Source: an uncultured Eubacteriales bacterium (lineage in GTDB: Bacteria > Bacillota > Clostridia > Christensenellales > Aristaeellaceae). Taken from it: a DNA stretch of 36,536 bases. The stretch is taken from the NCBI GenBank assembly GCA_902765305.1, contig CACWZI010000053.1:1-36536 (forward strand), given 5' to 3'. The position numbers and the translations under genes are program-made. Shown here one piece after another: positions 7,282 through 28,338 of this stretch. The first letter of the stretch is position 1, and every line of letters starts with the position of its first letter. The notes below the pieces were generated by a model that saw nothing but the letters and a program-made list of their open reading frames with translations, was not told where the DNA came from and made no database searches.

Positions 7282-7536
7282 ATGTGTGAACTGGCGATAA
7301 AGATACCGGATGCGGTGCTTTACGATACTCGAATGACGAAAGAACAAGCGCTCTGCTTTGCCAAGCGGGCGATAGCGTTGAGTTATTATACACAGAATGG
7401 TGTTTCCATAGGGTATTGCGCGCAGATCGCAGGTATGACGGAGGAAGATTTCATCAAATACCTTGGCGAGAATCACGTCTCCATATTCCATTTCGATGAT
7501 GAGGCGGAGTTTTTGGAGGAAATGAAGAATGCTTAG
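7282..7536 (+). CDS. UPF0175-family antitoxin
   Basis: An 84-residue protein with the UPF0175 look: a short beta start (ELAIKIPD), an alanine-rich helix (KEQALCFAKRAIALSYYTQ), then GVSIGYCAQIAGMTEEDFIKYLGENHVSIFHF, the helix-turn-helix-like block in which many members read G-(K/Y)-AAE-AG. These proteins pair with PIN/DUF3368 toxins and are thought to neutralise them and repress the operon. The ATG at 7282 follows GGAGGTG (7270-7276) by 5 bases; the upstream in-frame ATG at 7267 overlaps that ribosome site. It overlaps the toxin gene by 8 bases, which suggests translational coupling. Confidence 0.8.
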   Translation: MCELAIKIPDAVLYDTRMTKEQALCFAKRAIALSYYTQNGVSIGYCAQIAGMTEEDFIKYLGENHVSIFHFDDEAEFLEEMKNA

Positions 7537-8020
7537 GGTGATTGTCAACTCAACGCCGCTGATCGCCCTGTGCAATATAGGCAGACTGGATTTGCTCCAG
7601 AAGGTATACGGTAGAATCATCATCCCGCAGGCGGTCTTTGATGAAGTGACGGAAAAGGATGATTCTGCCTGTCGACAGATCAAGCAGCGTCCTGACTGGA
7701 TTGAGATCGAACAGATTTCGGATAAGTCACAGAAACAGATGTATCGGGCCAAGCTGCACGACGGAGAGGTTGAAGTGATGATACTGGCTCAGGAAACGCC
7801 CACCTCTGACTTGGTGATCATAGACGATAATGCCGCTAAGAAGACGGCCAAATTCTTGGGACTGCATGTGACGGGGACGCTGGGTGTGTTGCTGAGAGCA
7901 AAAAGGATGGGGTTGTTCGAGGAAATCGCGCCGGTCATTGATGATTTGTGCAAAAACGGCTTCTATGTAGATGATACGGTCAGAGCGATAGCACTCAGAC
8001 AAGCCGGGGAGAATCAATAA
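7529..8020 (+). CDS. DUF3368 PIN-like toxin
   Basis: A 163-residue PIN-fold protein of the DUF3368 type. The N-terminus (VIVNSTPLIALCNIGRLDLL) has Asn-Ser where classical VapC proteins have an acidic residue, as is common in this family. Further acidic positions are in FDEV (about residue 37), LHDGEVEVMIL (about 80) and VIIDDNAAKKTA (about 105). The expected activity is metal-dependent RNA cleavage, held in check by the partner encoded just upstream. The ATG at 7529 lies inside the last codons of the antitoxin gene with GGAGGA 8 bases upstream. Whether it is an active toxin cannot be told from sequence. Confidence 0.8.
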   Translation: MLRVIVNSTPLIALCNIGRLDLLQKVYGRIIIPQAVFDEVTEKDDSACRQIKQRPDWIEIEQISDKSQKQMYRAKLHDGEVEVMILAQETPTSDLVIIDDNAAKKTAKFLGLHVTGTLGVLLRAKRMGLFEEIAPVIDDLCKNGFYVDDTVRAIALRQAGENQ

Positions 8021-8808: not shown

Positions 8809-9375
8809 ATGAAATACCAGGGCATCCGAAAGATCCACGAGGGAAAATTCATCACCCGCTACGACGTGGACTATGTGACCGAGGAGGGGCACCCGAAGAC
8901 CTACGAGATCATCAGCAGAAACAGGGACCTTCATACGCTGGAGGAATTGCAGAACAAGGCGCCGGATTCGGTGATCCTGATCCTGACGGACGAGAGCGGC
9001 GAACGGATGCTGGTCAGCCGGGAGTACCGCATGGCGATCGCCCAGTGGATCTACAACTTCCCGGCGGGGCTGATCGATCCCGGCGAGACCCCGGAGCAGA
9101 GCGCGAAGCGGGAGCTGTGGGAGGAGACCGGCCTGACGCTGACGCGCATCGACGACGTGCTGGACAACAGCTACAACGCCGTGGGCTTCGCCAACGAGCG
9201 GAGCATCTGCGTCTTCGGCACGGCGACCGGGGAGTTCAGGAAGAGCACCTCCGACGCCGAGGAGATCGTGCCCGGCTGGTACACCAGGGAGCAGATGTGC
9301 GCCCTGCTGCGCACCGAGCCCTTCGCGGCGAGAACCCAGGCCTATTGCTATGCCTGGGCTTATAATACAATTTGA
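8809..9375 (+). CDS. NUDIX hydrolase (ADP-ribose pyrophosphatase-like)
   Basis: A 188-residue protein with a complete NUDIX box: G-L-I-D-P-G-E then R-E-L-W-E-E-T-G-L, near residues 87-109. The preceding YNFPAGLID segment is typical of ADP-sugar pyrophosphatases (NudF-like). It hydrolyses a nucleoside diphosphate linked to another moiety, probably ADP-ribose, with a divalent metal. AAGGAG precedes the ATG. Its position between the phosphatase and the metallo-beta-lactamase gene suggests a small nucleotide or metabolite clean-up operon; this grouping is an inference. Confidence 0.9.
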
Positions 9376-9397
9376 ACAGAAAAAGGAGGACATGCGT

Positions 9398-10342
9398 ATG
9401 ATGACCATCAAGGCAATCACCTTCAGGAAGGACGGCTTCTACGGCCAGCCCTTCGCCTTCGGCGGCGAGGACGGCCCCGAAAAATTCGACCCCAACGTGC
9501 GCTATCGCGGCGCGCTGACCAACTACCTGATCGATACCGGCGACGAGGTGATCCTGGTGGACACCGGCCTGCCGGCGGGCACCCCGGAGGAGGCCCCGGA
9601 CGAGAAGAGCCCCGCCTTCACCGGTAGGGACGTGGGCACCTATATGTCCCAATTCGCCGCGCTGGGCTACAAGCCCGAGCAGGTGACGAAGATCCTGCTG
9701 ACCCACAAGCACGCCGACCACTCCGGCGAGCTGAAGTCCTTCCCCAACGCGAAGATCTACGTGAACGCCGACGAGGTCTCCGCCGACGAGCTGAAGGGCC
9801 TGGGCAACCTCGTGCCCGTCACCTTCACCGATGGCCCGTACTACAATTTCCCCGCCAGCCAGAAGATCCGTGACGGCATCTATTACATCAAGGCCAAGGG
9901 CCACACCAACGGCAACAGCATCGTCATCGTGGAGCTGGACGGCCTGTTCTACATGATCCACGGCGACATCACCTATGTGGACGAGGCGCTGTACGCCAAC
10001 AAGCTGTCGGTGGTGTACGACGACAAAGCCGCCGCCCGCGAGACGCTGGACCGGGTGCGGGAATTCATTCGCAACCATCCCACGGTGTACGTCTCCACCC
10101 ACACCCCCCAGGGCTACGAGAACCTGGAGGCGAAGCGGGTGATGGACCTGGACCATCCCGTGGAGACCATCTTCGAGGAATACGACTTTGGCGGCATGAC
10201 GGCCTCCGGCAAGTACGTCTGTTCCGTCTGCGGCTACGTGTACGACCCCGCCGAGCACGACGGCGTGGCATTCGACGACCTGCCCGAGGACTGGAAGTGT
10301 CCCCGCTGCAAGCAGCCGAAGGGGAGGTTTAATCGGGCGTAA
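9398..10342 (+). CDS. Metallo-beta-lactamase-fold hydrolase fused to rubredoxin
   Basis: The first 260 residues or so form an MBL-fold domain: [13 protein letters not shown]-like HxHxDH motif (here [13 protein letters not shown], near residues 104-116), then [16 protein letters not shown] and STHTPQG, which supply the other metal ligands. The overall layout is like lactonase-type MBL proteins. The last 45 residues are a rubredoxin: [10 protein letters not shown] and CPRC, with the [11 protein letters not shown] block. Iron-sulfur-like electron transfer is therefore joined to a metal hydrolase or oxidoreductase fold. The ATG at 9398 is chosen because AAGGAGGA (9383-9390) lies 7 bases upstream; ATG 9392 is too close. 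The gene follows the NUDIX gene by 22 bases and ends just before a strong hairpin. Confidence 0.85.
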
Positions 10343-10409: not shown

Positions 10410-11219
10410 TCAGTCCTTCTTCGGGCCGAACAGGCCCTCGCGGTAGGCGGAGATGTACTCCATGCAGTAGTCGTCCAGGCCCAGCAGCGCCTCGGTGGCG
10501 TAGATGACGCCCATCATGTCCCGGTTGGTGGGATCGAGGATCGCGCTGTCCAGGCCGGCCTTCATGGCCAGCACGGTGAAGCCCAGGTTGACCATCTTGC
10601 GCACAGGCAGGTTGAAGGAGATGTTGGAGATGGCGGCGGTGATGTGGATGTCGTCGTACCGCTGGCGGATGGTGGAGATGACCTCCTCGTTGGTCTCGAT
10701 GCCGTTCTCGCTGGTGCAGAGCATCTCCACCAGGGGGTCGATGTGCAGGCGGGAGGGGCGGATGCCGTACTCCTTCGCCTTGGCCATGATCTTGTCGAAC
10801 ACCTTCAGGCGGTCGGCGGCGTTCTTCGGGATGCCGGTGTCGTCAGAGCACAGCGCGATGCACTCCCAGCCCTTGTTTTCGGCCATCAGGGGGAAGATGA
10901 TGTCCATCTTGTCGCCCTCGCCGGAGACGGAGTTGAACAGTCCGGGCCGCTTGCAGAACTTGTAGGCCTCGGCCAGCACCTTGGCGCTGGGGCTGTCGAC
11001 GGAGATGGGCAGGTCGGTGACCTCCTGGATGCAGTCGATCATCCACTTGAGGGTCTCGACCTCCTCGGCCTCCGGCACGGAGGCGCAGCAGTCGATGAAG
11101 GTCGCGCCGGCCTCGTCCTGGATGCGGGCGCGCTGCTTGATGAACTCCGCGTCCCGCTTGGCGATGGCCTCGGCCACGCTGGGGATGGAACCGTTGATCT
11201 TTTCGCCGATGATAATCAT
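10410..11219 (-). CDS. Methyl-tetrahydrofolate:corrinoid methyltransferase (AcsE/MetH pterin-binding family)
   Basis: A 269-residue TIM-barrel protein that should move a methyl group between a corrinoid protein and tetrahydrofolate. It starts IIIGEKINGSIP, and the pterin-site residues fall where I recall them in Moorella AcsE: Asp75 in ISVDSPS, Asn96 in LFNSVSGE, and Asp161 in LHIDPLV. Its length also matches AcsE (about 262), and it lacks the other domains of MetH. It is the last gene of the deoxysugar cluster, behind rhamnose mutarotase and the UroD-family methyltransferase. No corrinoid-protein gene is in the window, so that partner must be elsewhere. The catabolic direction (methyl group to tetrahydrofolate) is inferred. 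Confidence 0.85.
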   Translation of the reverse strand: MIIIGEKINGSIPSVAEAIAKRDAEFIKQRARIQDEAGATFIDCCASVPEAEEVETLKWMIDCIQEVTDLPISVDSPSAKVLAEAYKFCKRPGLFNSVSGEGDKMDIIFPLMAENKGWECIALCSDDTGIPKNAADRLKVFDKIMAKAKEYGIRPSRLHIDPLVEMLCTSENGIETNEEVISTIRQRYDDIHITAAISNISFNLPVRKMVNLGFTVLAMKAGLDSAILDPTNRDMMGVIYATEALLGLDDYCMEYISAYREGLFGPKKD

Positions 11220-11236
11220 TGGGCAATCTCCTTCCC

Positions 11237-11288
11237 TTAGGAACTGTAACGAAATAAGATGCGTAAGTTATTTCGTGAAGGTTCCTTA
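11237..11288 (-). other. Intercistronic hairpin between mutarotase and methyltransferase genes
   Basis: Two nested inverted repeats share a centre: AGGAAC (11239-11244) with GTTCCT (11281-11286), and ACGAAATAA (11249-11257) with TTATTTCGT (11268-11276). The structure fills the 70-base gap between the two genes. It may partly stop transcription or protect an mRNA end. Confidence 0.5.
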
Positions 11289-11289
11289 A

Positions 11290-11613
11290 TTAATCGAGGT
11301 GGTATATTTCCTCCATGTCCGACCAGAATTCCCCTTCCTTGCGATCCGGCAGGGGCTGCATCAGGGGCTTGACCACGTCCCACCACGCCTGGGTGTTGGG
11401 GTCGGCGGCCATCTTGGCCATGTCGGCGTCGAAGTCGTCGCCGTCGTACTCAAAGTAGGCGAACAGCCAGTCGCCCCGGCTGTAGATGGAATAGTTCTTC
11501 AGGTGGCATTCCTTGATCATCTCGTTGACGCCGGGCATCGGGTTGGCGTGCCACTTCTTGTAGGCCTCCAGCCCCTCCGGCTTCACGTTGATCATCTGTC
11601 CGAAACGAAGCAT
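11290..11613 (-). CDS. rhaM: L-rhamnose mutarotase
   Basis: A 107-residue protein of the RhaM family, which interconverts the alpha and beta anomers of L-rhamnose. The N-terminus (RFGQMINVKPEGLEAYKKWH) places Tyr18 and His22 at the positions of the E. coli catalytic residues, as I recall them. The NYSIY, LFAYFEY and QAWWDVVKPLM segments are the usual conserved blocks. Length is normal. The gene lies between the UroD-family gene and the pterin-binding methyltransferase gene, and downstream of a RhaS/LsrB-type importer. It is the best clue that the transported sugar is a rhamnose-like deoxysugar. Rhamnose isomerase, kinase and aldolase genes are not in the window. Confidence 0.9.
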   Translation of the reverse strand: MLRFGQMINVKPEGLEAYKKWHANPMPGVNEMIKECHLKNYSIYSRGDWLFAYFEYDGDDFDADMAKMAADPNTQAWWDVVKPLMQPLPDRKEGEFWSDMEEIYHLD

Positions 11614-11655
11614 GGTTGGTAAACCTCCGTTGGTATTCTTTTGGGTACCGGTTGA

Positions 11656-11725
11656 GGGAACAGGGAACAGGGAACAGGGAACAGGGAACAGGGAACAGGG
11701 AACAGGGAACAGGGAACAGGGAACA
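11656..11725. repeat. Tandem heptamer array, ten GGGAACA units
   Basis: Ten uninterrupted copies of GGGAACA lie between the rhaM start and the UroD-family stop. The copies are identical, which suggests recent expansion by replication slippage. Confidence 0.95.
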
Positions 11726-11750
11726 GGAATAGCCTGTGCCGTGCCATTTC

Positions 11751-11792
11751 ATTCCTAATTCCTCATTCCTAATTCCTAATTCCTCATTCCTC
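11751..11792. repeat. Tandem heptamer array, six ATTCCT(A/C) units
   Basis: Six units of ATTCCTA or ATTCCTC run into the stop codon of the UroD-family gene. On the other strand the unit reads GAGGAAT or TAGGAAT, the same heptamer type found near 24.6, 29.4-29.6, 30.8 and 34.4 kb. Confidence 0.9.
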
Positions 11793-12837
11793 AATATATC
11801 TTCCCGGCCTCTTCAAACAATGCTTTGACGTTGGCGGGGGGCACGTCGGCCTGCAGGGCCTCGTGGCTGGGGGAGATGATCAGGCCGGTGGGGAAGATGG
11901 TGCGCAGCTCCTTCACCTTGGCGGCCACCTCCTCGGGGGTGCCGAAGGGCAGCAGGTCCTGGGTGTCCACGCCGCCGCAGAAGGCCACCTTGCCGTAGAA
12001 CTTCTCCTTCAGGTTGTCCGGCTGCATGCCCGCGGCCTTGGCCTGGATGGGATGGATGGCGTCCACGCCCGCCTCGATCAGCAGCGGGATGGCGTCCACG
12101 ATGCTGCCGCAGGAGTGGTAGACGATCTTTACGCCGTAGCTGTGGGCGATGTCGATCAGCTTCTTCGCGCCGGGGATCACGAACTCGGAGACCAGCTTCG
12201 GGGAGATCATCAGCCCGCGCTGGCTGCCCACGTCGTCGCCGATCAGTATGGCGTGCACCTTGCCCTTGGTGGCCTCCAGGAAGATCCTCAGCGCCTTCTC
12301 ATAGAAGGCCACGATGTGGTCGTCCACGTAGTGCACCATCTCGGGGTCGGCCACCATGTTCATCAGGGCCGTCTGCATGCCGAAGGCGGCGCAGGTGTCC
12401 TGGAAGTGGCAGGCCCACAGCATGCCCATGACCGTCTTGCCCTCGGGGGCCTCGGCCACCAGCTTCTTGCACAGCTCGGGGTCGATGTACTTCTCCGGGT
12501 CGGGCCAGGGGAAGTTCACCGCCTCCACCTCGTCCAGGTCCTCGCAGTTGGCGAAGCAGCCGTCGGCGGTGAGGGTGCGGTGCTCGGTATCCACGTTGCT
12601 GCCGTTCATGTACCAGTCAAAGGCGGCGAAGATGGCGTTGCAGGTGGGGGAATGATAGGGGATCTCCACGGCATAGAAGTCGTCGCCGACGACCTTCTTC
12701 AGCTCGCTGGTGTTCTTGACGCCGTAGTATTCGCACAGCTTGGCCGCTTCCTCGGGGGTGGGGTCGCCCATCCAGCAGGCGGGGCGGTCGACGGGCTCGT
12801 AGGCGATGGTCTTGTAGAATCTCTCAAGGCTGTTCAT
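11791..12837 (-). CDS. UroD-family corrinoid methyltransferase (MtaA/MtbA/MtvB-like)
   Basis: A 348-residue TIM-barrel protein of the uroporphyrinogen-decarboxylase superfamily, but of the methyltransferase branch. It has the zinc-type H-x-C...C pattern: His241-Ser-Cys243 in YHSCGS and Cys287 in FCGGVD. True heme-pathway UroD enzymes lack this thiolate site. Members move methyl groups between a substrate or thiol and a corrinoid protein in methanol, methylamine and aryl-ether demethylation. It follows the permease genes after a 151-base gap that holds its own promoter and a copy of the operator also found before the binding-protein gene. The substrate is unknown; with the rhamnose-type importer and mutarotase, an O-methylated deoxysugar is the leading guess. 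Confidence 0.85.
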   Translation of the reverse strand: MNSLERFYKTIAYEPVDRPACWMGDPTPEEAAKLCEYYGVKNTSELKKVVGDDFYAVEIPYHSPTCNAIFAAFDWYMNGSNVDTEHRTLTADGCFANCEDLDEVEAVNFPWPDPEKYIDPELCKKLVAEAPEGKTVMGMLWACHFQDTCAAFGMQTALMNMVADPEMVHYVDDHIVAFYEKALRIFLEATKGKVHAILIGDDVGSQRGLMISPKLVSEFVIPGAKKLIDIAHSYGVKIVYHSCGSIVDAIPLLIEAGVDAIHPIQAKAAGMQPDNLKEKFYGKVAFCGGVDTQDLLPFGTPEEVAAKVKELRTIFPTGLIISPSHEALQADVPPANVKALFEEAGKIY

Positions 12838-12869
12838 AGCGCAGGCTCCCTTCGATATAAGTTAACATT

Positions 12870-12926
12870 ATCATAGCAAACCCGATTTGTCAATACCATA
12901 TACAAATTCAAGCTGAAATTGTATAT
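12870..12926 (-). promoter_or_regulatory. Promoter and operator of the UroD-family gene
   Basis: A near-palindrome at 12898-12926 has arms ATATACAAATTCA and TGAAATTGTATAT around AGC, with one mismatch. On the minus strand it lies 26 bases upstream of TATGAT (12870-12875, preceded by TTTGC). The same arrangement occurs before the binding-protein gene. TTGACA (12888-12893) overlaps the spacer, so a second -10 choice (GATAAT, 12867-12872) is possible. The layout fits activation or repression by the AraC-type regulator at 17.9 kb. Confidence 0.7.
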
Positions 12927-12988
12927 TCTTTGGGTGTTTCGAAAATTTACATGCTAATATCCCACGGAAATATAATTTTTAAAAGTCG

Positions 12989-13999
12989 TCACGCCTTCAG
13001 GCGCTTCTTCCCACCGAGCTTCAGCCCGAACAGACCGCCCTCGCCCACCTTGGTGGACATGATCAGCACGACGATCAGCAGGCCGCCCCAGATCAGGCTG
13101 GCGTAGTAGGTGTTCAGCGTGGGGAACATGTTGACGCCGGTGGCGATGATCTGTATGGTGACGATGGCGATCAGCACGTTGCCGATCTTGCCCATGCCGC
13201 CGTCGGGCAGCACGCCCGCCAGCACCAGTATGAGGATGCAGCGCATCACGTAGCTGGTGCCGTAATCGGCCTTGGCGCTGGCCATGGTGTTCACCATCAG
13301 CAGGCAACCGATGCAGCAGATCACGTCGCAGAGGATGTAGGTGCCCACCACCATGCGCTTGGTGTTGATGGCGGAGAACTCTGCGGCCTTGATGTTGGTG
13401 CCCACCATGTACAGCTTCTCGCCGTAAACGGTGTGGTTCAGCAGGAACCAGCACAGCGCGAAGATCATCAGGAAGATCAGCAGCGGCACCGGCAGGAAGC
13501 CCAGCAGGTACTTGTGCCCGATCTCGGTGTACAGCGCCGGCAGGCCCTTGACGGTGTTGCCGCTGGTCAGGGCGACTGACAGGCCCGTCCAAACCAGCTG
13601 CATGGCGATGGTGGCCATCACCGGGGGGATGTCCAGCTGGCTGACCAGCAGGCCGTTGATCAGCCCGCCGAAGGCCGCGATGGCCAGGGCGATCAGTATG
13701 CCCACCAGGATCACGCCGCCGGCGGGGCTGTCGGCGTGACCTGCCATGTACTGCACGGCCATGATGGTAGCGAAGTCGCCCAGGGCCATAAAGGACATGT
13801 CCATCTTGCCGCAGATGAAGCAGAACATCAGGCCCAGCGTGACCACGCCGTATTCCGGAAACTGCATGGCGATGCCCAGCCACACGTCACCCTTCCAGAG
13901 CATCGTGCCCTTCAGGACGGTGAAGAACAGCAGCACCACGGCCATCAGGCCCAGCAGCATGAAGGTATAGCTGTGTTTTTGAAGCGTACTCGATTTCAT
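12989..13999 (-). CDS. Sugar ABC transporter permease (RbsC-like)
   Basis: A 336-residue membrane protein of the BPD_transp_2 family with about eight to ten hydrophobic segments. Conserved family blocks are visible: CFICGKMDMSFMALGDFATI, GLINGLLVSQLDIPPVMATI, GEKLYMVGTNIKAAEFSAINTK and a glycine-rich C-terminal part. It forms the membrane channel with the other permease 16 bases upstream and couples to the two-domain ATPase. A strong GGAGGAGGAG-type ribosome site precedes the ATG. It ends the transporter block; the next gene downstream has its own promoter. Confidence 0.9.
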   Translation of the reverse strand: MKSSTLQKHSYTFMLLGLMAVVLLFFTVLKGTMLWKGDVWLGIAMQFPEYGVVTLGLMFCFICGKMDMSFMALGDFATIMAVQYMAGHADSPAGGVILVGILIALAIAAFGGLINGLLVSQLDIPPVMATIAMQLVWTGLSVALTSGNTVKGLPALYTEIGHKYLLGFLPVPLLIFLMIFALCWFLLNHTVYGEKLYMVGTNIKAAEFSAINTKRMVVGTYILCDVICCIGCLLMVNTMASAKADYGTSYVMRCILILVLAGVLPDGGMGKIGNVLIAIVTIQIIATGVNMFPTLNTYYASLIWGGLLIVVLIMSTKVGEGGLFGLKLGGKKRLKA

Positions 14000-14015
14000 T
14001 GCCTTCTCCTCCTCC

Positions 14016-15035
14016 TTACTGCTTCTGGCGCTTGGCCTGCAGGGCCGACACGGTGACGCCGACCAGTATGACCAGGCCGTTGAAGAACTGCTGCCAGTAG
14101 GTGTCGATGCCCAATATCAGCATCGAGTTGGAAACCAGCGAGATGATGCCCACGGCCACCACCGTGCCGAACACGGTGCCCTCGCCGCCGTAGATCGACG
14201 CGCCGCCCAGTATGACGGCGGGGATGATGGTCATCTCCTTGCCGATCATGGCCTTGGGGATGGACTGGCTCTCCATGCACACGCGGATCATGCCGATAAA
14301 GCCTGCCAGCGCGCCTACCGCCGAGTACAGCAGGAACTTGGTCTTCTTCACGTTGTAGCCGGCGCGCTCGGCGGAGACCTCGTTTCCGCCGATGGCGTAC
14401 AGCGCCCGGCCGAACATCGTCTTGTTCAGCATGAATGAGACGATGGCGCACAGCGCGATCAGGAACAGCACCATGGCCGACAGCGTAAACCGTATGCCGG
14501 TGACCGGGTCGGCGCTTTCAAAGATGTACAGCTTGCCGAAGGCCTTCATGCCGTCCGGCAGGGTGGAGGTGATCTCCTTCAGCTTCAGAAGGCCCATGGA
14601 GATGCCGGTGAAGAAGGTCTGGGTGCCCAAGGTGACGATCATGGTGTTCAGCTTGAAGTTGGAGATGATCCAGCCGTTCAGCATGCCCAGCACCCAGCCG
14701 ATGGCCACGGCCAGCGCGAAGCCCGCCAGCGGGTTCGTGGCGCACCAACCGTTGTTCAGGCAGATCGTGGTCGAAAGCGAGTAGGCCAGCGCCGCGATGG
14801 CCGGGAAGGAGAGGTCGAAGCCGCCGGAGATCATGACCACCAGCGAGCACATGGCGAACATGCCGTCCACCACCATCGTTCGCAGCACCGTGACGTTCAG
14901 GCGGGTGAAGATTCCCGGGAAGGTGATCAGCTGTCCGCTGGACTTGATCTGCACCAGCACGCACAGCAGGATCAGCACGATAAACATGTAAAATTCGGTC
15001 TTGCGCGTCATGCGCTTCAGCTTTGCGTTGTTCAT
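14016..15035 (-). CDS. Sugar ABC transporter permease (RbsC-like)
   Basis: A 339-residue partner permease. Visible blocks are MISGGFDLSFPAIAALAYSL, GMLNGWIISNFKLNTMIVTLG, GRALYAIGGNEVSAERAGYN and ILGGASIYGGEGTVFGT. Having two different permeases, each about 340 residues, is typical of the rhamnose (RhaP/RhaQ) and AI-2 (LsrC/LsrD) importers, whereas ribose importers use one. It begins 12 bases after the ATPase stop. Confidence 0.9.
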   Translation of the reverse strand: MNNAKLKRMTRKTEFYMFIVLILLCVLVQIKSSGQLITFPGIFTRLNVTVLRTMVVDGMFAMCSLVVMISGGFDLSFPAIAALAYSLSTTICLNNGWCATNPLAGFALAVAIGWVLGMLNGWIISNFKLNTMIVTLGTQTFFTGISMGLLKLKEITSTLPDGMKAFGKLYIFESADPVTGIRFTLSAMVLFLIALCAIVSFMLNKTMFGRALYAIGGNEVSAERAGYNVKKTKFLLYSAVGALAGFIGMIRVCMESQSIPKAMIGKEMTIIPAVILGGASIYGGEGTVFGTVVAVGIISLVSNSMLILGIDTYWQQFFNGLVILVGVTVSALQAKRQKQ

Positions 15036-15047
15036 GCCCGCGCCTCC

Positions 15048-16532
15048 TTATCGTATGATGTTCAGTATGTTCTCTTCGGTGATCCGGTCGCCGGTCATCT
15101 CGCCCACGATGGCGCCGTCCTTCATGACGATGACGCGGTTGCAGTTGACCACGACCTCGGCCAGGTCGTCGGAGATGATGATGACCGCCAGGCCCTGGTT
15201 GGCCAGGTCGTGCACCAGCGCGTGGATGTCCTGCTTTGCGCCGACGTCCACGCCCACGGTGGGGCCGTTCAGGATCAGCACGTCCAGGTCGTTGTTCAGC
15301 CACTTGCTCAGCACGATCTTTTGCTGGTTGCCGCCGGACAGCGTGCTGGCGTGCTTGTGGGCGTCGTCGGTGGCGATGGAGAACTTTTTGACCCACTCGT
15401 TGGATTTTTCAAACAGCTCGTCGTGCTTCAGCGTGCCCAGCGCGTGGGTCAGCTGCTTCAGTGATGAGAGCATGATGTTGTCGGCGATGGGCTGGCGCAG
15501 GCACAGGCCCTCGGTCAGCCGGTCCTCGGGCACGTAGCCGATGCGCTTCTTCTGGGCGTCGATGGGCGATGTGATCTTCACCTGCTGGCCATTCAGGGTG
15601 ATGGTGCCGGAATGGACCTTACCCAGCCCGAACAGGCTGAGGGCCAGTTCGGTGCGGCCCGAGCCCAGCAGGCCGGTGATGCCCAGGATCTCGCCCTTGC
15701 GAAGGTCGAAGCTGACGTCGTGGAACTTGCCGTTCCAGGTCAGGTGGTCCACCTTCAGCACCGGCTCCTTGGAGATGTTGGTGGGCACGAAGTAGTCGTC
15801 CTCCAGCTCGCGACCGGTCATGTAATAGGTGAAATCCTTCTTGGTCAGCTCGGCGGTGGGGCCGGAGTACACGTTTTTGCCGTTGCGCATGATGCACACG
15901 TCGTCTGAGATTTCGAAAATCTCCTCGGTCTTGTGGCTGATGAACATGATGGCGATGCCCGAATCCCGCAGCTGGCGCACCGTCTTGAACAGCGCGTCCA
16001 CCTCCTTCTTGGTCAGGGCGGTGGTGGGCTCGTCCATGATGATCAGCTTGGCGTTGAACAGCAGCGCCCGGCAGATGGCCACCAGCTGCTTGTCCGCCAC
16101 CGACAGATCGCCCATCTTGGCGTACAGATCGATCTCGTAGCCGATCTTCGAGAGGGCCTCCTTTGCGGTCTGCTCCCAGCGCTTGCGGTTCACGATCTTT
16201 CGGTTGGCCGTGATCTCGCTGTTGATGGCCAGGTTTTCCATGACCGTCAGGTTGGGGAAGATGGACAGATCCTGGTAGATGACCTGTATGCCCAGGCGTG
16301 TGGCCTCCGCGGGGGTGATGTGCTGTATGGGCTTGCCCTCGAACAGCACCTCGCCCTCGTCGCGGGTGTACACGCCGGAGATGATCTTCACCAGCGTGGA
16401 TTTGCCGCACCCGTTTTCGCCGGCCAGGCACATGACCTTGCCGGGCCTGACCGCGAAATTGACGTGGTCCAGGGCGTGGACGCCGCCGAAGCGCTTGTCA
16501 ATACCGGTCATTTGAAGCAGGTATTCAGACAT
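15048..16532 (-). CDS. Sugar ABC transporter ATP-binding protein (RbsA/RhaT-like)
   Basis: A 494-residue protein with two fused ABC domains. Domain one has Walker A GENGCGKST, signature LSVADKQLV and Walker B LIIMDEPTTAL. Domain two has the degenerate Walker A typical of the family (GLLGSGRTE) and the signature LSGGNQQK, then VLILNGPTVGVDVGA with Asn-Gly in place of Asp-Glu. The start at 16532 (MSEYLLQM) is chosen because it matches the family N-terminus and has AAGGAG 9-10 bases upstream; the frame runs on upstream without similarity. It energises import with the two permeases that follow within 16 bases. Confidence 0.92.
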   Translation of the reverse strand: MSEYLLQMTGIDKRFGGVHALDHVNFAVRPGKVMCLAGENGCGKSTLVKIISGVYTRDEGEVLFEGKPIQHITPAEATRLGIQVIYQDLSIFPNLTVMENLAINSEITANRKIVNRKRWEQTAKEALSKIGYEIDLYAKMGDLSVADKQLVAICRALLFNAKLIIMDEPTTALTKKEVDALFKTVRQLRDSGIAIMFISHKTEEIFEISDDVCIMRNGKNVYSGPTAELTKKDFTYYMTGRELEDDYFVPTNISKEPVLKVDHLTWNGKFHDVSFDLRKGEILGITGLLGSGRTELALSLFGLGKVHSGTITLNGQQVKITSPIDAQKKRIGYVPEDRLTEGLCLRQPIADNIMLSSLKQLTHALGTLKHDELFEKSNEWVKKFSIATDDAHKHASTLSGGNQQKIVLSKWLNNDLDVLILNGPTVGVDVGAKQDIHALVHDLANQGLAVIIISDDLAEVVVNCNRVIVMKDGAIVGEMTGDRITEENILNIIR

Positions 16533-16625
16533 GATGCATTGCTCCTTGTCTTTTTGGATTCGTAACCGCTGATGGCGGCACGGCGTAGGCCGCTGTGCTC
16601 CCATCAACGGTCATGATGTTGTGAA

Positions 16626-16656
16626 CGAGGCAGGGAAGAATGCCTTCCCTGCCTCG
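16626..16656 (-). other. Perfect 13-bp hairpin between binding-protein and ATPase genes
   Basis: CGAGGCAGGGAAG (16626-16638) pairs exactly with CTTCCCTGCCTCG (16644-16656) around a five-base loop. It lies 35 bases past the binding-protein stop, inside a 158-base gap. A second, looser inverted repeat (ACCG..GATGG / CCATC..CGGT) fills 16564-16612. Such structures commonly leave the binding-protein mRNA more abundant than the membrane-component mRNA. Confidence 0.6.
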
Positions 16657-16690
16657 CAAGGTATTGGGGTTCGAGGCTCAAATCGATCGA

Positions 16691-17686
16691 TTAGAAGCCG
16701 AAGGACTCCCAGTTGTCCACGGTGACGGCCAGGTAGCCATCGCCAAAGATGAAGTTCTTGCCCTTGCCGTTGTCGGCGATGTGCACGGAGTGATAGCCCT
16801 CCTCGCCCAGGTCGGAGCCCTCGCCGACTTCCTCGCCGGCGAACAGCTTCATGGCGGTGTTCAGCTGCACCTTGGCGGTGACGGAAGCATCCCACAGGGC
16901 GACGGACTTCAGGGTGCCGCTCTTCAGATAGTCGGAGACCTCAGCGGGCATGGCCACGGAGATTGCGAACATCTGGCCGGTCAGGCCCATCTCCTCGATG
17001 GCGCGGGCGGCGCCGGGGGCGTCGAAGGAGCCGGTGCCGAGGATGCCCTTCAGGTTCGGATACTTCTGCTTCAGCTGCATGGTCAGGTTGTAGGCTTCCT
17101 GGGCGTCGGAGTTGTCCTCGACGCGCTTGTCGTCCACCAGCACCAGGTTAGGATAGGCGGCCTCGGCGCGGGCCACGGCGGCGTCAGCCCAGTTGTTCTG
17201 GGATTCCATCGTCATGGAGCCGACCATGGTGATGTACTCGCCCTCTTCACCCATCTGCGCGGCCAGCTCGTCCATCAGGAAGGCGCCCAGGCCGGCCTCG
17301 TCGAAGGCCTCGATGTCGAAGTCGACGTTTTCCATGCCGGAGGCCTCGGTGGCGATCACGATGATGCCCTTTTCACGGGCGGTCTTGCAGATCTCCTCGC
17401 AGGCGTCGGGATCGTTTGGGGAGAAGCACAGGATGTCGATGCCCTGGTTGACCAGATCGGTCATGATGCCCACCTGCTCGGCGGCGTCGACGGTGGTGCC
17501 ACCCTTGTAGATGACGTCGATGCCGTTGTCGGCAGCCCACTGCTCAACGCCCTGCTGCACGTGATCCCACCAGGGCTGGCCGATGACCTTCGGCACGTAG
17601 GCGATCGTGGGGGTCTTCTCGGCGAAAGCGGCGGTCAGAGACATGAGCATCATGACAGCCAGAATCAGTGCGACGAGTTTCTTCAT
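16691..17686 (-). CDS. Sugar-binding protein of an ABC importer (LsrB/RhaS type)
   Basis: A 331-residue exported periplasmic-binding-protein-fold protein. The signal peptide MKKLVALILAVMMLMSLTAAFA ends before EKTP and has no lipobox Cys, so membrane attachment is not evident. The mature part starts TIAYVPKVIGQPWW and includes NQGIDILCFSPNDPDA, MESQNNWADAA and SGTLKSVALWDASVTAKV; the last block resembles LsrB (GTVKEFGLWD). Ligand: likely rhamnose, a methylated deoxysugar, or AI-2. The ATG at 17686 is supported by GGAGGA 8 bases upstream. It is the first gene of the transporter cluster and faces the AraC regulator gene. Confidence 0.88.
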   Translation of the reverse strand: MKKLVALILAVMMLMSLTAAFAEKTPTIAYVPKVIGQPWWDHVQQGVEQWAADNGIDVIYKGGTTVDAAEQVGIMTDLVNQGIDILCFSPNDPDACEEICKTAREKGIIVIATEASGMENVDFDIEAFDEAGLGAFLMDELAAQMGEEGEYITMVGSMTMESQNNWADAAVARAEAAYPNLVLVDDKRVEDNSDAQEAYNLTMQLKQKYPNLKGILGTGSFDAPGAARAIEEMGLTGQMFAISVAMPAEVSDYLKSGTLKSVALWDASVTAKVQLNTAMKLFAGEEVGEGSDLGEEGYHSVHIADNGKGKNFIFGDGYLAVTVDNWESFGF

Positions 17687-17792
17687 AGTGATATTCCTCC
17701 TTGTTTTTTTATAACCTCCGCCCTCGGCGGAAATCATCGCTCCGGGACAGGGGACATAGCATCCCCATTACCATTGTTAACTTTCAACTACA

Positions 17793-17849
17793 ACTATAGC
17801 AAAAGGGGACATAAAACACAATTAACAATTTAAGTATGAAGTTGTATAT
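17793..17849 (-). promoter_or_regulatory. Promoter and operator of the binding-protein operon
   Basis: On the minus strand the -10 box TATAGT (17793-17798, preceded by TTTTGC) has a weak -35 TTGTGT (17816-17821) at 17 bases. Directly upstream, 17825-17849 repeats the operator found before the UroD-family gene: 19 of 25 positions are identical, and the 26-base distance to the -10 box is the same. The position next to a poor -35 box fits an AraC-type activator. Confidence 0.72.
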
Positions 17850-17929: not shown

Positions 17930-18835
17930 ATGCGCAGCAACTATTACGCGGACGACCTGGAGCACGACATCGTGGGCAGCGTGCCCCACGACGTGTACTA
18001 TCTGGCGCCCCGGGCGGTAGACCCGAACAGCCTGTACATCCAGGTGAACCGGGCGGGCATCGTGCTGAAAACGCCCACGGACTTCCTGATCAGCCGGGAC
18101 GACGCCTATCCCTACAGCATGATCCACTGCGTGATGTACGGCAAGGGCACGGTGTCCACCCGGGGGCACACCTTCGGCGTGCACGCCGGGCAGCTGTTCG
18201 TGATGGCCAGCAACGAGGGCCACATGTATTCCACCGACCCCAAGGACCCGCTGGGGCTGGTGTGGGTGGAGTACGCCGGGGGCAACAGCGCCCAGCTGAC
18301 CCGCCACATACTGGACCTGGGCGGCCCGATCTACGAGGGCGGGGCCTTCACCGACGTGATGAACCTGTGCACCTCGTTTCTCTACCAGGCGCACCAGGAG
18401 GGCCCGGGCATCAGCATGCTGCTTTACAACATACTGATGACGCTGTGCAAGCGGGTGGAGATCGAAAACAACGGCCATCCGGTGAATCATAAGATACTGA
18501 AGTACATCGACGAGAACATCGACCACCGCCTGACGCTGACGGAGATCGCCCAGACCTTCGGCTACCATCCGGCCTACTTCTCGAACCTGTTCTCCAGGAC
18601 CGTGGGCACCACCTTTTCCAAGTATGTGATGAGCCGCAAGATCAGCCACGCCTGCTACCTGCTGGAGACCACGTCCTGGCCCGTGGAGCGCATCGCCCAG
18701 GAGCTGGGCTTCTGCGATACCAGCCACTTCATACAGCGCTTCAAGGCCATCCAGCAGGTGACCCCCATCGCCTACCGAAACGGCAGCGTGCTGTACCAGA
18801 AGAAGCACGGCGGCGCGGGGGCGAGAAGGATATAG
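17930..18835 (+). CDS. AraC-family transcriptional regulator of the deoxysugar operon
   Basis: A 301-residue regulator with an N-terminal cupin-like sensor half (MIHCVMYGKGTVSTRGHTFGV and HAGQLFVMASNEGHMY are sugar-binding jelly-roll blocks) and a C-terminal double helix-turn-helix from about residue 190. The first HTH is LTEIAQTFGYHPAYFSNLFSR and the second is PVERIAQELGFCDTSHFIQRF, the AraC signature. AAGGCGGTGAG precedes the ATG. It is divergent from the binding-protein gene and is separated from it only by the shared operator and two promoters, so it most likely controls the transporter, the UroD-family gene and itself in response to the imported sugar. Confidence 0.9.
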   Translation: MRSNYYADDLEHDIVGSVPHDVYYLAPRAVDPNSLYIQVNRAGIVLKTPTDFLISRDDAYPYSMIHCVMYGKGTVSTRGHTFGVHAGQLFVMASNEGHMYSTDPKDPLGLVWVEYAGGNSAQLTRHILDLGGPIYEGGAFTDVMNLCTSFLYQAHQEGPGISMLLYNILMTLCKRVEIENNGHPVNHKILKYIDENIDHRLTLTEIAQTFGYHPAYFSNLFSRTVGTTFSKYVMSRKISHACYLLETTSWPVERIAQELGFCDTSHFIQRFKAIQQVTPIAYRNGSVLYQKKHGGAGARRI

Positions 18836-18894: not shown

Positions 18895-19275
18895 TTACTT
18901 CACGACACCCTTCTGCAAAATCACGTTGGCGTACAGCGCCGCTTCGCTGGTGGCGATGATGACATAGGCCTTCTTCGCTTCCTCATAGAACGCAAAACGC
19001 TCGATGTGGCCGATCTTCGTGCCGGGCTCGTACTTCTCGACGATCTTCGCGTATTCGTCCCAGATGGGGGTCTCCACCGGGTCGCCGGGCACGACCTCCA
19101 TCAGGCTGACAGGCGCTTCCACGTAGGGGTCCAGCGGGAAGAACTTCAGTATGGCGTCCAGGATCTCGGGCACGCCGTGGCCGTCCAGGCGCACCAGCTT
19201 GCAGTCCTTCGCCATGGCCGCCGCCGGGAAGTTGCCGTCGCCGATCACCAGCGTGTCGCCGTGGCCCATCTCCAT
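18895..19275 (-). CDS. fucU: FucU/RbsD-family sugar mutarotase, short N-terminus
   Basis: Catalyses anomer interconversion of L-fucose. EMGHGDTLVIGDGNFPAA is the FucU/RbsD signature with the catalytic His, and the C-terminal YANVILQKGVV matches the family. From the first ATG it has 126 residues against about 140 in E. coli FucU. The missing piece is the N-terminal helix. The frame is open upstream and encodes ...KKGCVPLKIL before MEMGHGD, so part of the helix sequence is present but without an ATG, GTG or TTG. No clear ribosome site stands before ATG 19275. A rare ATT start (19311) or a small deletion could explain this. It follows fucI by 92 bases, with a hairpin in the gap. Confidence 0.82.
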   Translation of the reverse strand: MEMGHGDTLVIGDGNFPAAAMAKDCKLVRLDGHGVPEILDAILKFFPLDPYVEAPVSLMEVVPGDPVETPIWDEYAKIVEKYEPGTKIGHIERFAFYEEAKKAYVIIATSEAALYANVILQKGVVK

Positions 19276-19367: not shown

Positions 19368-21170
19368 TTACTTCTTGTAGAACGGGCCGTAGTTGGCGCA
19401 GGCGCGATAGTCGGCGCCCTCCTTGTCCATGCCGAAGGCGTTCCAGGCCGCGGGCCGGAAGATCTTCGAGACGGGCACGTTGTGCATGGCCACGGGGATG
19501 CGCAGCATGGAGCAGAAGGTGATCAGGTCGGCGCCGATGTGGCCGTAGCTGATCGCGCCGTGGTTGGCGCCCCAGTTGTTCATCACGTCGTAGGCGGTCT
19601 TGAAGGGGCTGCCCTCGACGCCGTCGCAGCGGGGGGTGAACCAGGTGCAGGGCCAGGTGTAGTCGGTGCGCTTCCACAGGGTGTCGGTCACCTCGTCGGG
19701 CAGGGCCACGGTCCAGCCCTCGGCGATCTGCAGCATCGGGCCCAGGCCGTCCACCAGGTTCAGGCGGATCATCGTGGCGGGCATCTCGCAGTCGGTCACG
19801 AAGCGGCTGGAGTATCCGCCGCCGCGGAAGTAGCCCAGGTCGGCGTAGTTCCAGGTGGTGTTCTTCATGATGGCTTCCTGGTCTTCCTCGGTGACCTCGT
19901 ACCAGGGCTTCATGACGCGGTTGCCGTCCTTGTCGCGGGCCTGGCCGTTGGCGTCCAGGCAGCACGCGCCGGAGTTGATCAGGTGGATGAAGCCGCCGTT
20001 CTCCTTGGCCTTGCCCTCCAGCTCATAGCCGGTGCAGCGCTTGACGGCCTCGGGGCTCCAATAGGTGCGCACGTCGGCGAACATCTGGGCGCGGTTGGTC
20101 AGCAGCTTCATGAACAGCATGCCCAGGCCGTTCAGCACGTCGTTCTCGGTGGCGAACACATAGGGCTCGCGGGCGCCGTTGTGGTCGAAGGACGTGTTCA
20201 GCATGGCCTCGGGATAGTCGCAGTTCGGATAGAAGTCGGTCCACTGGCGCTGGCCCTGGAAGCCGCCGGCGATGGCGTTGTGGCCCACGGCCTCTTCCTC
20301 GTTGCCCTTGGGCAGGTTGGGGTTGCCGTTGAGCAGGTCCTTGATGATCAGGTACATCTTCAGGGTGAACTCCCAATCCTTGTCCTTGTCCTCGCGGCTC
20401 TTCTGCAGGGATTCGGGGTTCTTGTCGAAGCCCTCGATGACGTTCTTCTCGGCCCACTTCTTCAGCTTCTTGTATTCCTTCTCGTCGTAGATGCCCAGCG
20501 TCATGCGGCGGATGACCTCGACCTCGTCGACGCTCTCAACGCGCATGCCCAGGTATTCCTCGATGAACTTGGAATCGATGATGGAGCCGCCGATGCCCAT
20601 CGTGATGGCGCCGATCTGCAAATAGCTCTTGCCCCGCATGGTGGCGGCGGCGACGGCCGCGCGGCCGAACCGGAGCAGCTTTTCCTTCACGTCCTCGGGG
20701 ATGGAGGTGTCGTCGGCCTCCTGGACCTCATGGCCGTAGATGCCGAAGGCGGGCAGGCCCTTCTGGGCGTGGGTGGCCAGCACGGAGGCCAGGTATACCG
20801 CGCCGGGGCGCTCGGTGCCGTTGAAGCCCCAGACGGCCTTGATGGTGTTGCGGTCCATGTCCATGGTCTCGGAGCCGTAGCACCAGCAGGGGGTCACGGT
20901 CAGGGTGATGGCGACGCCTTCGTGGCGGAACTTCTCCTCGCAGGCGGCGGCCTCGGCCACGCGGCCGATGGTGGTGTCGGCGATGACCACCTTCACGGGC
21001 TCGCCGTTGGAGTAGCGCAGGTTCTCCTCAAACAGCTTCGCGGCGGACTTGGCCATGTTCATGGTCTGGTCCTCCAGGCTCTCGCGCACCTTCAGCGCGC
21101 CGCGGCGGCCGTCGATGGTGGGCCGGATGCCGATGACCGGGTAGCTGCCCAGGTATCTGTTCTTTGCCAT
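19368..21170 (-). CDS. fucI: L-fucose isomerase
   Basis: Manganese-dependent cytoplasmic isomerase that converts L-fucose to L-fuculose; it often also acts on D-arabinose. The 600 residues match the family size (E. coli 591). The N-terminus [20 protein letters not shown], the central [11 protein letters not shown]...[16 protein letters not shown]...ATENDVLNG blocks that hold the metal ligands, and [20 protein letters not shown] near the C-terminus are all conserved. The ATG at 21170 has AAGGAGGA 9 bases upstream; an in-frame TTG nine bases earlier touches that site. It is transcribed with the fucU-like gene and is divergent from an AraC regulator. Fuculokinase and fuculose-phosphate aldolase are not in the window. 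Confidence 0.95.
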
Positions 21171-21247
21171 GTGAATCAATCCTCCTTAAAATAACTGTCA
21201 AATCGGACAATAGAATTGCCGACACTGCGGTTAATTCCAATATAACA

Positions 21248-21321: not shown

Positions 21322-22167
21322 ATGCATTACCTGGACTACAACGAACAGATACAGCACCGTACCGGGGATTTCCCGCTGGCCTGGTATCCGGTGGATGTTC
21401 ACCACGAGCGCTACCGCATGCCGATGCACTGGCACCGGGAGACGGAGCTGATCTGGGTGCGCAGCGGACGTCTGAGCCTGTACATCGACGACCGGGAGGT
21501 CCTGGCCGAGCCGGGGGACCTGATGCTGATCGCCGGGGGCGTGGTCCACGGCGGCGAGCCGGAGGACTGTGTCTACGAGTGCGCGGTGTTCGACGCGGGC
21601 CTGATGCTGGGGCAGGACGCCTGCGCCCGGCGGCTGAAGGGGGTGCTGAACCACAGCATATTCCTGAAGGCGGCGGACATCGACGCCGACGAGGCCCTCA
21701 GAGGCGCGACGGTAGGGCTGTTCGGGCGCTGCCGGGACGGGGTGGATGAAAACGTGCTGGAGATCACCGGCAGCCTGTACGCGCTGTTCGGCGCGCTGAT
21801 GCGCTGCCGGGACAGGGCCGTGCTGGACACCCCCTCCGCCCGCTTCGGGCAGAAGGCCGAGCAGCTGAAGCCGGCGCTGGAGTACATCGAGACCCACTAC
21901 GGCCAGGGCATCACCCTGGAGGAGCTGGCGCGGCTGACGGGCATGTCGCCCAAGTACTTCTGCCGCTTCTTCAAGACGATCGTCCACCGCTCGCCCATCG
22001 ACTACGTGAACTACTACCGGGTGGAGTGCGCCAGCCACTTTTTGACCAGCGGCGACATGACCGTGGCCGAGATCGCCCAGCACTGCGGCTACAACGATTC
22101 CAGCTTCTTCATCAAGCAGTTCAGGAAATACAAGGGCACCACGCCGAAGAAGTACCGGATGGTATGA
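21322..22167 (+). CDS. AraC-family regulator, probably of fucI-fucU
   Basis: A 281-residue regulator. The N-terminal cupin half has PMHWHRETELIWVRSGRLSL and EPGDLMLIAGGVVHGG, typical of sugar-sensing AraC proteins. The C-terminal half carries the two HTH motifs: LEELARLTGMSPKYFCRFFK and VAEIAQHCGYNDSSFFIKQF, followed by KGTTPKKYR. GGAGGCAG precedes the ATG. It is divergent from fucI, so regulation of the fucose genes is the simplest reading. Its 3' end runs into the REP array 27 bases later. Confidence 0.9.
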   Translation: MHYLDYNEQIQHRTGDFPLAWYPVDVHHERYRMPMHWHRETELIWVRSGRLSLYIDDREVLAEPGDLMLIAGGVVHGGEPEDCVYECAVFDAGLMLGQDACARRLKGVLNHSIFLKAADIDADEALRGATVGLFGRCRDGVDENVLEITGSLYALFGALMRCRDRAVLDTPSARFGQKAEQLKPALEYIETHYGQGITLEELARLTGMSPKYFCRFFKTIVHRSPIDYVNYYRVECASHFLTSGDMTVAEIAQHCGYNDSSFFIKQFRKYKGTTPKKYRMV

Positions 22168-22193: not shown

Positions 22194-22639
22194 TGTAGCG
22201 GCGACTATCAGTCGCCATGGTAACTCAACGCAAGGGGTGACGAGTGGCGGCAGATTGCCGCCGCTACGAAAAACACCCCGTGTAGCGGCGACTATCAGTC
22301 GCCACAGCAACCCAGCGGGAGGGGGTAACGGTGGCGGCAGATTGCCGCCGCTACGAAGAACACCCCGTGTAGAGGCGACTATCAGTCGCCACAGCAACCC
22401 AACGGGAGGGGGTAACGGTGGCGGCAGATTGCCGCCGCTACGAAAAACACCCCGTGTAGCGGCGACTATCAGTCGCCACAGCAACCCAGCGCAAGGGGTG
22501 ACGGCAGCGGCAGGTTGCCGCCGCTACGAAGAACAACCCCATGTAGAGGCGACTATCAGTCGCCACAGCAACCCAGCGGAAGAGGGTAACGGTGGCGGCA
22601 GATTGCGACACTAAGTTAGTCCTTCAGGGCCGCCGCTAC
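22194..22639. repeat. REP-type palindromic array, left half (five units plus variant end)
   Basis: Five copies of the palindrome GGCGACTATCAGTCGCC start at 22200, 22287, 22374, 22461 and 22548, an exact 87-base period. Each alternates with a second palindrome, GGCGGCAGATTGCCGCC or a close variant, joined by GCTACGAARAACA and CAGCAACCCA-type spacers. The last unit (22592-22639) is different: its second palindrome is split by a 20-odd-base insert containing GTCCTTCAGGG. Long equal spacing and inner palindromes mark it as a BIME-like array rather than a CRISPR. Open frames across it are chance products. Confidence 0.93.
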
Positions 22640-23079
22640 GGGGTATAATACCTGTCTTCAATCCATTTTGCCGGATTGTTTTCCATATATTCCCATATGT
22701 GCTGATAATCTGCCTCGCTACGAACGACATGATCATAAAATGACTTCTGCCATACGGATTCGCCTGCACGGCGGGTAACATATCGCTTGTATTGGCTTAC
22801 AATCGTTGATACAGTTGCATTGGAACAATGCAGGCTTATCAGGATATGTACATGATTTGGCATGATTACATATTTCTCTATGTGTACGCCGGTATATATG
22901 ATGTCGATTTGACAAAGCGCATCTTTCACTATTTCGCCGATTTCACTGATTGCCATTGTTTGAGAATTGGCAAACAGACAGAGTCTGTCACGAGCGCAGA
23001 GGGTCAAAAAATAAATACCATTGGAAGCATAATCATATGTTTGCATGCGGTTTGTTTTTCGGCGGAACCCTTTATCCAT
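22636..23079 (-). CDS. REP-associated tyrosine transposase (IS200-like, RAYT)
   Basis: A 147-residue Y1 transposase of the IS200/TnpA-REP kind. The metal-binding HUH motif is NHVHIL (His76, His78), and the likely nucleophile is Tyr115 in SFYDHVVRSEADY, the position I recall for E. coli TnpA-REP. These single-strand nucleases cut at REP palindromes. The gene lies between two REP arrays that share repeat sequence, as expected for a RAYT. AGGAGG lies 7 bases before the ATG. Its stop codon is the TAG of the repeat's GTAGCGGC end, so the coding sequence runs directly into the left array. It looks intact. Confidence 0.92.
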   Translation of the reverse strand: MDKGFRRKTNRMQTYDYASNGIYFLTLCARDRLCLFANSQTMAISEIGEIVKDALCQIDIIYTGVHIEKYVIMPNHVHILISLHCSNATVSTIVSQYKRYVTRRAGESVWQKSFYDHVVRSEADYQHIWEYMENNPAKWIEDRYYTP

Positions 23080-24560: not shown

Positions 24561-24618
24561 GGGGATACCTCCTAAAATGATATTATGTCAACCGCTTTGC
24601 GGTCAAACATCGTGGTAG

Positions 24619-24668
24619 GGATTAGGAATTAGGGGAATCGGCTGACACCATCTCCCGCAGGGGAGATG
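24619..24668. repeat. Short repeat: TTAGG heptamers and a CATCTCCC hairpin
   Basis: ATTAGGAATTAGG (from about 24621) is a short member of the heptamer family. It is followed by an 8-bp hairpin, CATCTCCC (24649-24656) / GGGAGATG (24661-24668), in the gap between permease and binding-protein genes. The hairpin resembles the CCTTCCCC/GGGGAAGG element at the window's right end. Confidence 0.5.
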
Positions 24669-24686
24669 CCGCGCCTCGTGCCGTTC

Positions 24687-25694: not shown

Positions 25695-25706
25695 ACTCGC
25701 GCCTCC

Positions 25707-26678: not shown

Positions 26679-26692
26679 GCGTCACCCTCCTG

Positions 26693-28326: not shown

Positions 28327-28338
28327 ATGAACGGTTAC

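Follow-up and report, generated by a model that had tools for sequence, protein, structure and literature searches.

A candidate B12-dependent pathway for demethylation of a methylated sugar, with O-methyl-L-fucose as the favoured substrate, in an uncultured Clostridia genome

Results

The DNA analysed here (the window) is a 36.5 kb contig with 61% GC, C53 of the uncultured Eubacteriales genome G000 (3.88 Mb in 177 contigs, completeness 93%). A cluster on its minus strand (10410-17737) combines the genes of a sugar importer with those of a UroD-family protein, a RhaM-family mutarotase and a pterin-binding methyltransferase. This gene set, listed by a first-pass annotation of the same DNA, is borne out by Pfam and NCBIfam matches (Table 1), and the GC content at third codon positions of the cluster genes is 0.88-0.97. 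Judging from sequence comparisons, the cluster very probably performs B12-dependent methyl transfer, and there is good reason to think that the methyl donor is a methylated sugar. We favour, with somewhat less confidence, the reading that this substrate is an O-methyl-L-fucose, which the operon would O-demethylate. The leading natural candidate, we infer, is the 2-O-methyl-L-fucose of rhamnogalacturonan II (RG-II), a natural substrate that, together with the methyl position it implies, we put forward tentatively.

In the proposed pathway, the importer would bring in the free methyl sugar and the mutarotase, which is FucM-like, would supply the right anomer. The UroD-family enzyme would then transfer the ether methyl group to Co(I) on a small corrinoid protein (CP), whose gene is located elsewhere in the genome, and the pterin-binding enzyme would pass it on from the corrinoid to tetrahydrofolate (THF); a RACo activator would repair oxidised corrinoid. 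Methyl-THF would feed into the Wood-Ljungdahl pathway, and FucU and FucI would take over the L-fucose set free. The first-pass annotation had proposed B12-dependent demethylation of a methylated deoxysugar; the corrinoid genes of the genome, the CP, methyltransferase and RACo genes that join the cluster in relatives, and the co-occurrence with RACo and CP described below all speak for that idea, which we narrow to fucose over rhamnose.

All four parts of an O-demethylase are present in the genome: the proposed substrate:corrinoid methyltransferase (MT1) and the methyl-THF:corrinoid methyltransferase (MT2) in the window, a CP on contig C81 and an activator on contig C67. The MT2 scores 334 bits against PRK07535 (cut-off 259), as expected of a methyl-THF:corrinoid methyltransferase, and 117 bits against the AcsE model NF040758 (CODH_ACS_meth), far below its cut-off of 370. 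Its pterin-site residues Asp75, Asn96 and Asp161, pointed out in the first-pass annotation, are kept in 13/13 other aligned proteins. A separate AcsE fragment stands at the end of contig C36 (319 bits over 181/261 positions), behind genes that we take, by judgement of their sequence and from no model, to be of acsC/acsD type. The window enzyme, 31% identical to this fragment, is therefore a second, distinct methyltransferase, and we rejected the possibility that it is the only AcsE of the genome.

The CP and the activator are both absent from the window, and the genome search that had been suggested for them located both. The CP on C81 is complete (227 residues, with a GDLHDIGKNL stretch) and adjoins another UroD-type gene. 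Further CP fragments lie at contig ends on C60, C105 and C113, where the assembly breaks inside the CP genes at a stretch common to the copies, and the genome therefore has more than one small CP; one of them is the presumed partner of the MT1. By score, the genome's corrinoid proteins come closest to families of the glycine-betaine/pyrrolysine type. Two RACo proteins were found: one, on C41, is AcsV (954 bits against a cut-off of 800), and the other, on C67, is a different protein that is 75.5% identical to the RACo whose gene comes directly after the pterin gene in the related loci L007 and L008; the same pterin-RACo gene order recurs in L009 and L010. An acetyl-CoA synthase is also encoded (C39 copy, 1012 bits, cut-off 800).

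Across 120 genomes of the window's family, with UroD called at E <= 1e-60 and small CPs counted as open frames of up to 400 residues, the UroD gene was found in 13 genomes, in one of which (G072) the match is interrupted by a stop. RACo was present in 13/13 of these compared with 48/120 overall (p = 2e-6), and a small CP in 13/13 compared with 41/120 (p = 2e-7); these and the other Poisson and Fisher values given here ignore relatedness.

The UroD-family protein belongs to the superfamily by its match to PF01208 (78.4 bits, gathering cut-off 23.9). It falls under the equivalog cut-off of every NCBIfam methyltransferase model and lies outside the MtaA/CmuA family TIGR01463 (37.4 bits, cut-off 235.4). 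An AlphaFold model built from 31 sequences (predicted local distance difference test score 89.7) has as its closest fold in the PDB the MtaA of Methanosarcina mazei (4ay8/4ay7; TM 0.73, 17% identity), with UroD proteins next. A profile made from the UroD alignment gave no match to solved structures at 0.01, and 12 matches at chance level at 10.

An H-x-C...C zinc site (His241, Cys243, Cys287) had been read from this protein. All three residues are present, and His241 and Cys243 are, like His325 and Glu326, invariant in 39 aligned orthologs, but Cys287 is kept in only 34 of the 39 and is no canonical ligand. The C-terminal Cys of the H-x-C paralogs C22 and c28 falls instead on Ser324/His325 of the window protein, and we rejected Cys287 as a third metal ligand on these grounds. 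The window protein thus lacks the C-terminal Cys ligand of an MtaA-type H-x-C...C site; its metal site, if any, is probably made of His-x-Cys plus His325, a variant of that of MtaA.

With the window UroD as query, 84,980 species genomes yielded 53 loci with 58-98% identity, which together with nine stretches from whole genomes make up a table of 62 loci. We refer to the 45 loci with a UroD of at least 72% identity (44 of the 53 scan loci, plus L089, which repeats L013) as close, and to the remaining 17 as distant; the 72% split was our choice, and the distant loci are not one clade. Two of the close loci, L023 and L047, are near copies. The close relatives are Clostridia, several of ruminant-gut origin.

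A RhaM gene accompanies UroD in 41/45 close loci and is adjacent to it in 40, and the pairing is therefore not a chance one; of the four close loci that lack it, two (L040 and L054) stop in or just after UroD. The adjacency of UroD, pterin and rhaM genes across species, raised in the first-pass annotation as a test, thus holds for RhaM in the close loci, and for the pterin gene in a minority of them (see below). A CUT2-type ATPase is found in 26/45 close loci, a CP gene in 11/45 and a RACo gene in 8/45. UroD, RhaM, pterin and CP genes stand side by side in three Blautia loci (L023, L047, L049), a CP gene follows RhaM in L012, and in L037 FucI, FucU, a CP gene, UroD, RhaM and the importer form one row. 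L049 belongs to Blautia schinkii DSM 10518, and the gene set occurs in cultured Blautia strains.

These neighbours bear on the nature of the methyl donor. It could be no sugar at all, an aryl methyl ether, a methylamine or a methylthiol for example, with the sugar genes as chance neighbours; the known UroD-superfamily methyltransferases use aryl ethers or halomethanes (according to excerpts of PMC13222342), and the similarity of the corrinoid proteins to glycine-betaine/pyrrolysine-type families would also fit. We hold this to be unlikely in view of the frequency of RhaM and CUT2 ATPase genes in the close loci and of fucosidases in 10/17 distant ones.

Several other features of the related loci were recorded. 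A regulator of about 750 residues (c6) occurs in 17 loci, including L022:7377-9632, and is often divergent to UroD; the one member scanned joins a helix-turn-helix of LacI type and a Peripla_BP domain to an additional SBP_bac_1 domain, which makes it an odd fusion of a repressor and a second binding-protein domain. Further UroD paralogs (c17 in L023, L017, L029 and others; c28 in L012, L025, L032 and L037) are often accompanied by a GDSL hydrolase, by corrinoid proteins or by importers of their own, and are probably further demethylases with other substrates. Locus L094 (G096:C74:12000-31000) combines four or more UroD-type genes with a CP gene, a RACo gene and the c30 gene, which follows RACo elsewhere. 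Genes of the creatininase family and of the prolidase/creatinase family lie near corrinoid and RACo genes in L014 and L032.

The window mutarotase had been annotated as an L-rhamnose mutarotase, a label that its scores do not support: it reaches 43.4 bits against TIGR02625 (equivalog cut-off 99.6), and its closest solved relatives are the L-fucose mutarotases 7byu/7byw (7byu 100.7 bits; 47/105 positions identical, 45%), compared with 28.2 bits for the L-rhamnose mutarotase 6hhn. Residues Tyr18 and His22, noted in the same annotation, are present and also occur in 7byu; across 44 aligned rows they are conserved in 95% or more.

Among the 62 loci, RhaM genes (45 rows) and fucosidase genes (10 rows) are mutually exclusive, with no locus having both, and the starts of the GH29 and SASA proteins show by eye no signal peptide. 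Loci that import a free sugar would need a mutarotase, while cleavage of an oligosaccharide inside the cell would give the right anomer directly. Since the mutarotase is missing in the loci with an intracellular fucosidase, this pattern suggests that the UroD enzyme takes the anomer that such a fucosidase releases. In L104 and L105 a DUF4432 protein (L104:7740-8846, L105:10806-11912) directly follows UroD in the place of RhaM; its matches to solved structures are at chance level.

The genes around UroD further point to fucose. The L-fucose isomerase reported next to the cluster is a true one (FucI, above the equivalog cut-off of NF008220), and the cluster has FucI/FucU genes close by both in the window and in 5/45 close loci (L004, L005, L019, L024, L037). 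GH29 or GH95 alpha-L-fucosidases are the genes beside UroD in the 10 distant loci mentioned above, which span four GTDB-type families (f1, f10, f38 and the named Lachnospiraceae, with which f10 may be identical). In 7/17 distant loci there is a SASA esterase, and in 4/17 the gene immediately upstream of UroD encodes a GH42 beta-galactosidase; the order SASA-GH29-UroD is seen in L039, L043, L044, L046 and L103. The count of GH29 genes is ten in 254 kb, against 0.2 to 1.3 expected from the density in the window's family only. In a UroD tree rooted by midpoint only, the close loci group together with support (99/98), and fucosidase-linked orthologs are spread over several lineages outside that group; the fucoside link may therefore be the older state.

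The donor might instead be another methylated monosaccharide, such as O-methyl-rhamnose or 2-O-methyl-xylose, demethylated by the same B12-dependent chemistry. The RhaM family name, the RhaS-like sugar-binding protein (SBP), a rhamnulokinase-like kinase in L037 and an alpha-L-rhamnosidase domain in the open reading frame after UroD in L050 would agree with this, and RG-II also holds 2-O-methyl-xylose and, in lycophytes and pteridophytes, 3-O-methyl-rhamnose (PMC12168206, in excerpt). We give this alternative a minor share of the probability, as the mutarotase is far nearer to L-fucose than to rhamnose mutarotases, FucI and not RhaA lies beside the cluster, and the annotated distant loci are dominated by fucosidases and not xylosidases. 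The FucM-like mutarotase, the FucI/FucU genes and the GH29/GH95 fucosidases thus favour fucose over rhamnose.

In L091, a protein beside UroD matches residues 39-539 of Bacteroides BT1020 (PDB 5mqr, 348 bits; PF24067, 1.7e-72), which we take to be an RG-II enzyme (GH142/GH143); the PDB name of 5mqr is Beta-L-arabinobiosidase. PF24067 is found in 6/13 UroD genomes compared with 9/107 others (p = 0.0014), an association carried by four genomes of one genus plus two whose UroD matches are weaker. The UroD loci yielded no GH139 in a search that used no GH139 model. Neither L090:3035-3907 nor L093:6807-8912 matched any solved structure. The L090 fragment may be GH106-like, an assignment that rests on its 69% identity to L108:4414-7467, itself below the PF17132 cut-off (18.5 bits, cut-off 29).

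The SBP had been assigned to an LsrB/RhaS-type importer. RhaS and LsrB are indeed its best NCBIfam models, but it misses both equivalog cut-offs (RhaS 145 bits, cut-off 342; LsrB 116 bits, cut-off 384); its closest solved chain is 5bra (205.5 bits). Import of autoinducer-2 was dropped as a leading reading because of the score below the LsrB cut-off and the neighbouring fucose genes.

Against the proposed demethylation of O-methyl-L-fucose weigh the following observations. A pterin gene is nearby in only 12/45 close loci, and the 17 distant loci have neither pterin nor CP nor RACo genes. Five genomes of the same genus have no such UroD at E <= 1e-60. Acetyl-CoA synthase occurs in only 2/13 UroD genomes compared with 7/120 (p = 0.17); set beside the 13/13 for RACo and CP, this figure ties the proposed demethylation to the corrinoid machinery and not to acetogenesis. 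The solved relatives nearest to the SBP include no fucose binders, no GH29 or GH95 gene is found in the 45 close loci, and no BT1020-like protein is encoded in the window's genome. The kinase near FucI in L037 scores higher as a rhamnulokinase (446 bits, cut-off 528) than as a fuculokinase (136 bits).

Some of these points would also fit a UroD that is no methyltransferase, with the cluster serving plain deoxysugar transport and the corrinoid genes co-occurring via other systems: a CP, RACo or pterin gene of any kind is near UroD in only 20/45 close loci, in addition to the lack of all three in the distant ones, and the protein stays below all methyltransferase equivalog cut-offs. We consider this the least probable of the alternatives, as the best fold match of the protein is MtaA, UroD, pterin and CP genes form sets in Blautia, and RACo and CP co-occur with UroD in 13/13 genomes.

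The remaining features of the window are given in Table 1. The second CUT2 importer is a probable L-fucose importer, its ligand being deduced from the importer between FucI and FucU in L019 (ATPase2 88%, permeases 59-61% and SBP2 65% identity). ATPase2 and the aldo/keto reductase are 64% and 54% identical, respectively, to genes adjoining UroD in L105. An Rfam scan and a tRNA search of the window gave no matches.

Table 1. Features of the window, with positions, strand and supporting matches
Feature	Position	Strand	Evidence
DUF3368/PIN-type protein	7529..8020		
Metallo-beta-lactamase fold fused to rubredoxin domain	9350..10342		
Pterin-binding methyl-THF:corrinoid methyltransferase (MT2), AcsE paralog	10410..11219	-	PF00809 2.6e-16
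RhaM-family mutarotase	11290..11613	-	PF05336 1.7e-29
UroD-family methyltransferase, proposed sugar-ether:corrinoid MT1	11791..12837	-	PF01208 6.8e-22
ABC importer permease 2 (CUT2 type)	12989..13999	-	PF02653 2.1e-22
ABC importer permease 1 (CUT2 type)	14016..15035	-	PF02653 1.4e-33
ABC importer ATPase (CUT2 type), two domains	15048..16607	-	PF00005 1.2e-53
Importer sugar-binding protein (SBP)	16691..17737	-	PF13407 (Peripla_BP_4) 5.2e-50
Divergent AraC-family regulator	17930..18835	+	PF00165 3.3e-25, PF02311 8.1e-08
FucU/RbsD-type mutarotase	18895..19275	-	PF05025 1.3e-37
L-fucose isomerase FucI	19368..21179	-	NF008220 1018 bits (cut-off 775); PDB 4c21 836 bits
Second AraC-family regulator	21322..22167	+	PF12833 8.1e-22
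IS200-like transposase, weak match	22636..23079		24.9 bits
Second CUT2 importer (SBP2, two permeases, ATPase2), probable L-fucose importer	23514..28327	-	Pfam
Aldo/keto reductase and zinc alcohol dehydrogenase, second operon	28401..30711	-	PF00248 3.2e-47, PF00107 1.6e-26

Discussion

The methyl donors described for corrinoid O-demethylases are aryl ethers, methanol, methylamines and halomethanes, and a sugar methyl ether as donor would widen corrinoid chemistry to carbohydrates. It is conceivable, if short of probable, that a dedicated and widespread B12 pathway in gut Clostridia strips sugar methyl ethers, with the 2-O-methyl-L-fucose of RG-II as its natural substrate. If so, free methyl sugars from plant-wall degraders would feed both fucose fermentation and C1/acetate metabolism, and the bacterium would gain a usable sugar together with a one-carbon unit. 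Such a pathway would give a fate for methylated pectin sugars in the gut, and would connect the breakdown of pectin with one-carbon metabolism and, in some hosts, with acetogenesis. As the gene set is present in cultured Blautia strains, the idea of sugar demethylation can be put to a direct test. We found no report of B12-dependent sugar demethylation in the open-licence literature searched, and a term search of the main text of a 2026 review on gut O-demethylation (PMC13418474) returned neither sugar, fucose nor carbohydrate.

On the carbohydrate side, the mutarotase is 45% identical to FucM (7byu/7byw) of the non-phosphorylating pathway; FucM goes with a fucose dehydrogenase pathway, whereas the window mutarotase adjoins a methyltransferase and FucI. 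The Bacteroides GH139 enzyme BT0984, an alpha-2-O-methyl-L-fucosidase acting on RG-II, would release the proposed substrate (PMC10154630, in excerpt); that RG-II system consists of glycosidases and includes no demethylation.

On the methyltransferase side, excerpts of PMC13222342 give aryl ethers or halomethanes as the substrates of the UroD-superfamily MT1 enzymes MtvB, OdmB, VdmB, MtoB and CdmB, and describe many clades as uncharacterised. The methylcobamide:coenzyme M methyltransferases MtaA and MtbA provide the closest solved fold and share the H-x-C motif, but the window UroD is only 17% identical and is without the C-terminal ligand Cys. The chloromethane system CdmBCA, reported from Blautia, likewise joins a UroD-superfamily MT1 to a CP; its CdmB is reported in the same excerpts to have a hydrophobic site without zinc, whereas the window UroD keeps His241, Cys243 and His325, and the substrate differs. 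The nearest parallel is with the aryl-ether systems MtvABC, OdmABCD, VdmABCD and MtoABCD, which are alike in having a UroD-superfamily MT1, a small CP, a methyl-pterin MT2 and a RACo-type activator (PMC13222342 and PMC8630106, both in excerpt). Unlike in those systems, the CP and the activator are here encoded outside the operon, and in place of aromatic genes there are a sugar importer, a mutarotase and fucose genes. We therefore propose that the cluster belongs to the same four-part machine as the known O-demethylases, turned to a new class of substrate.

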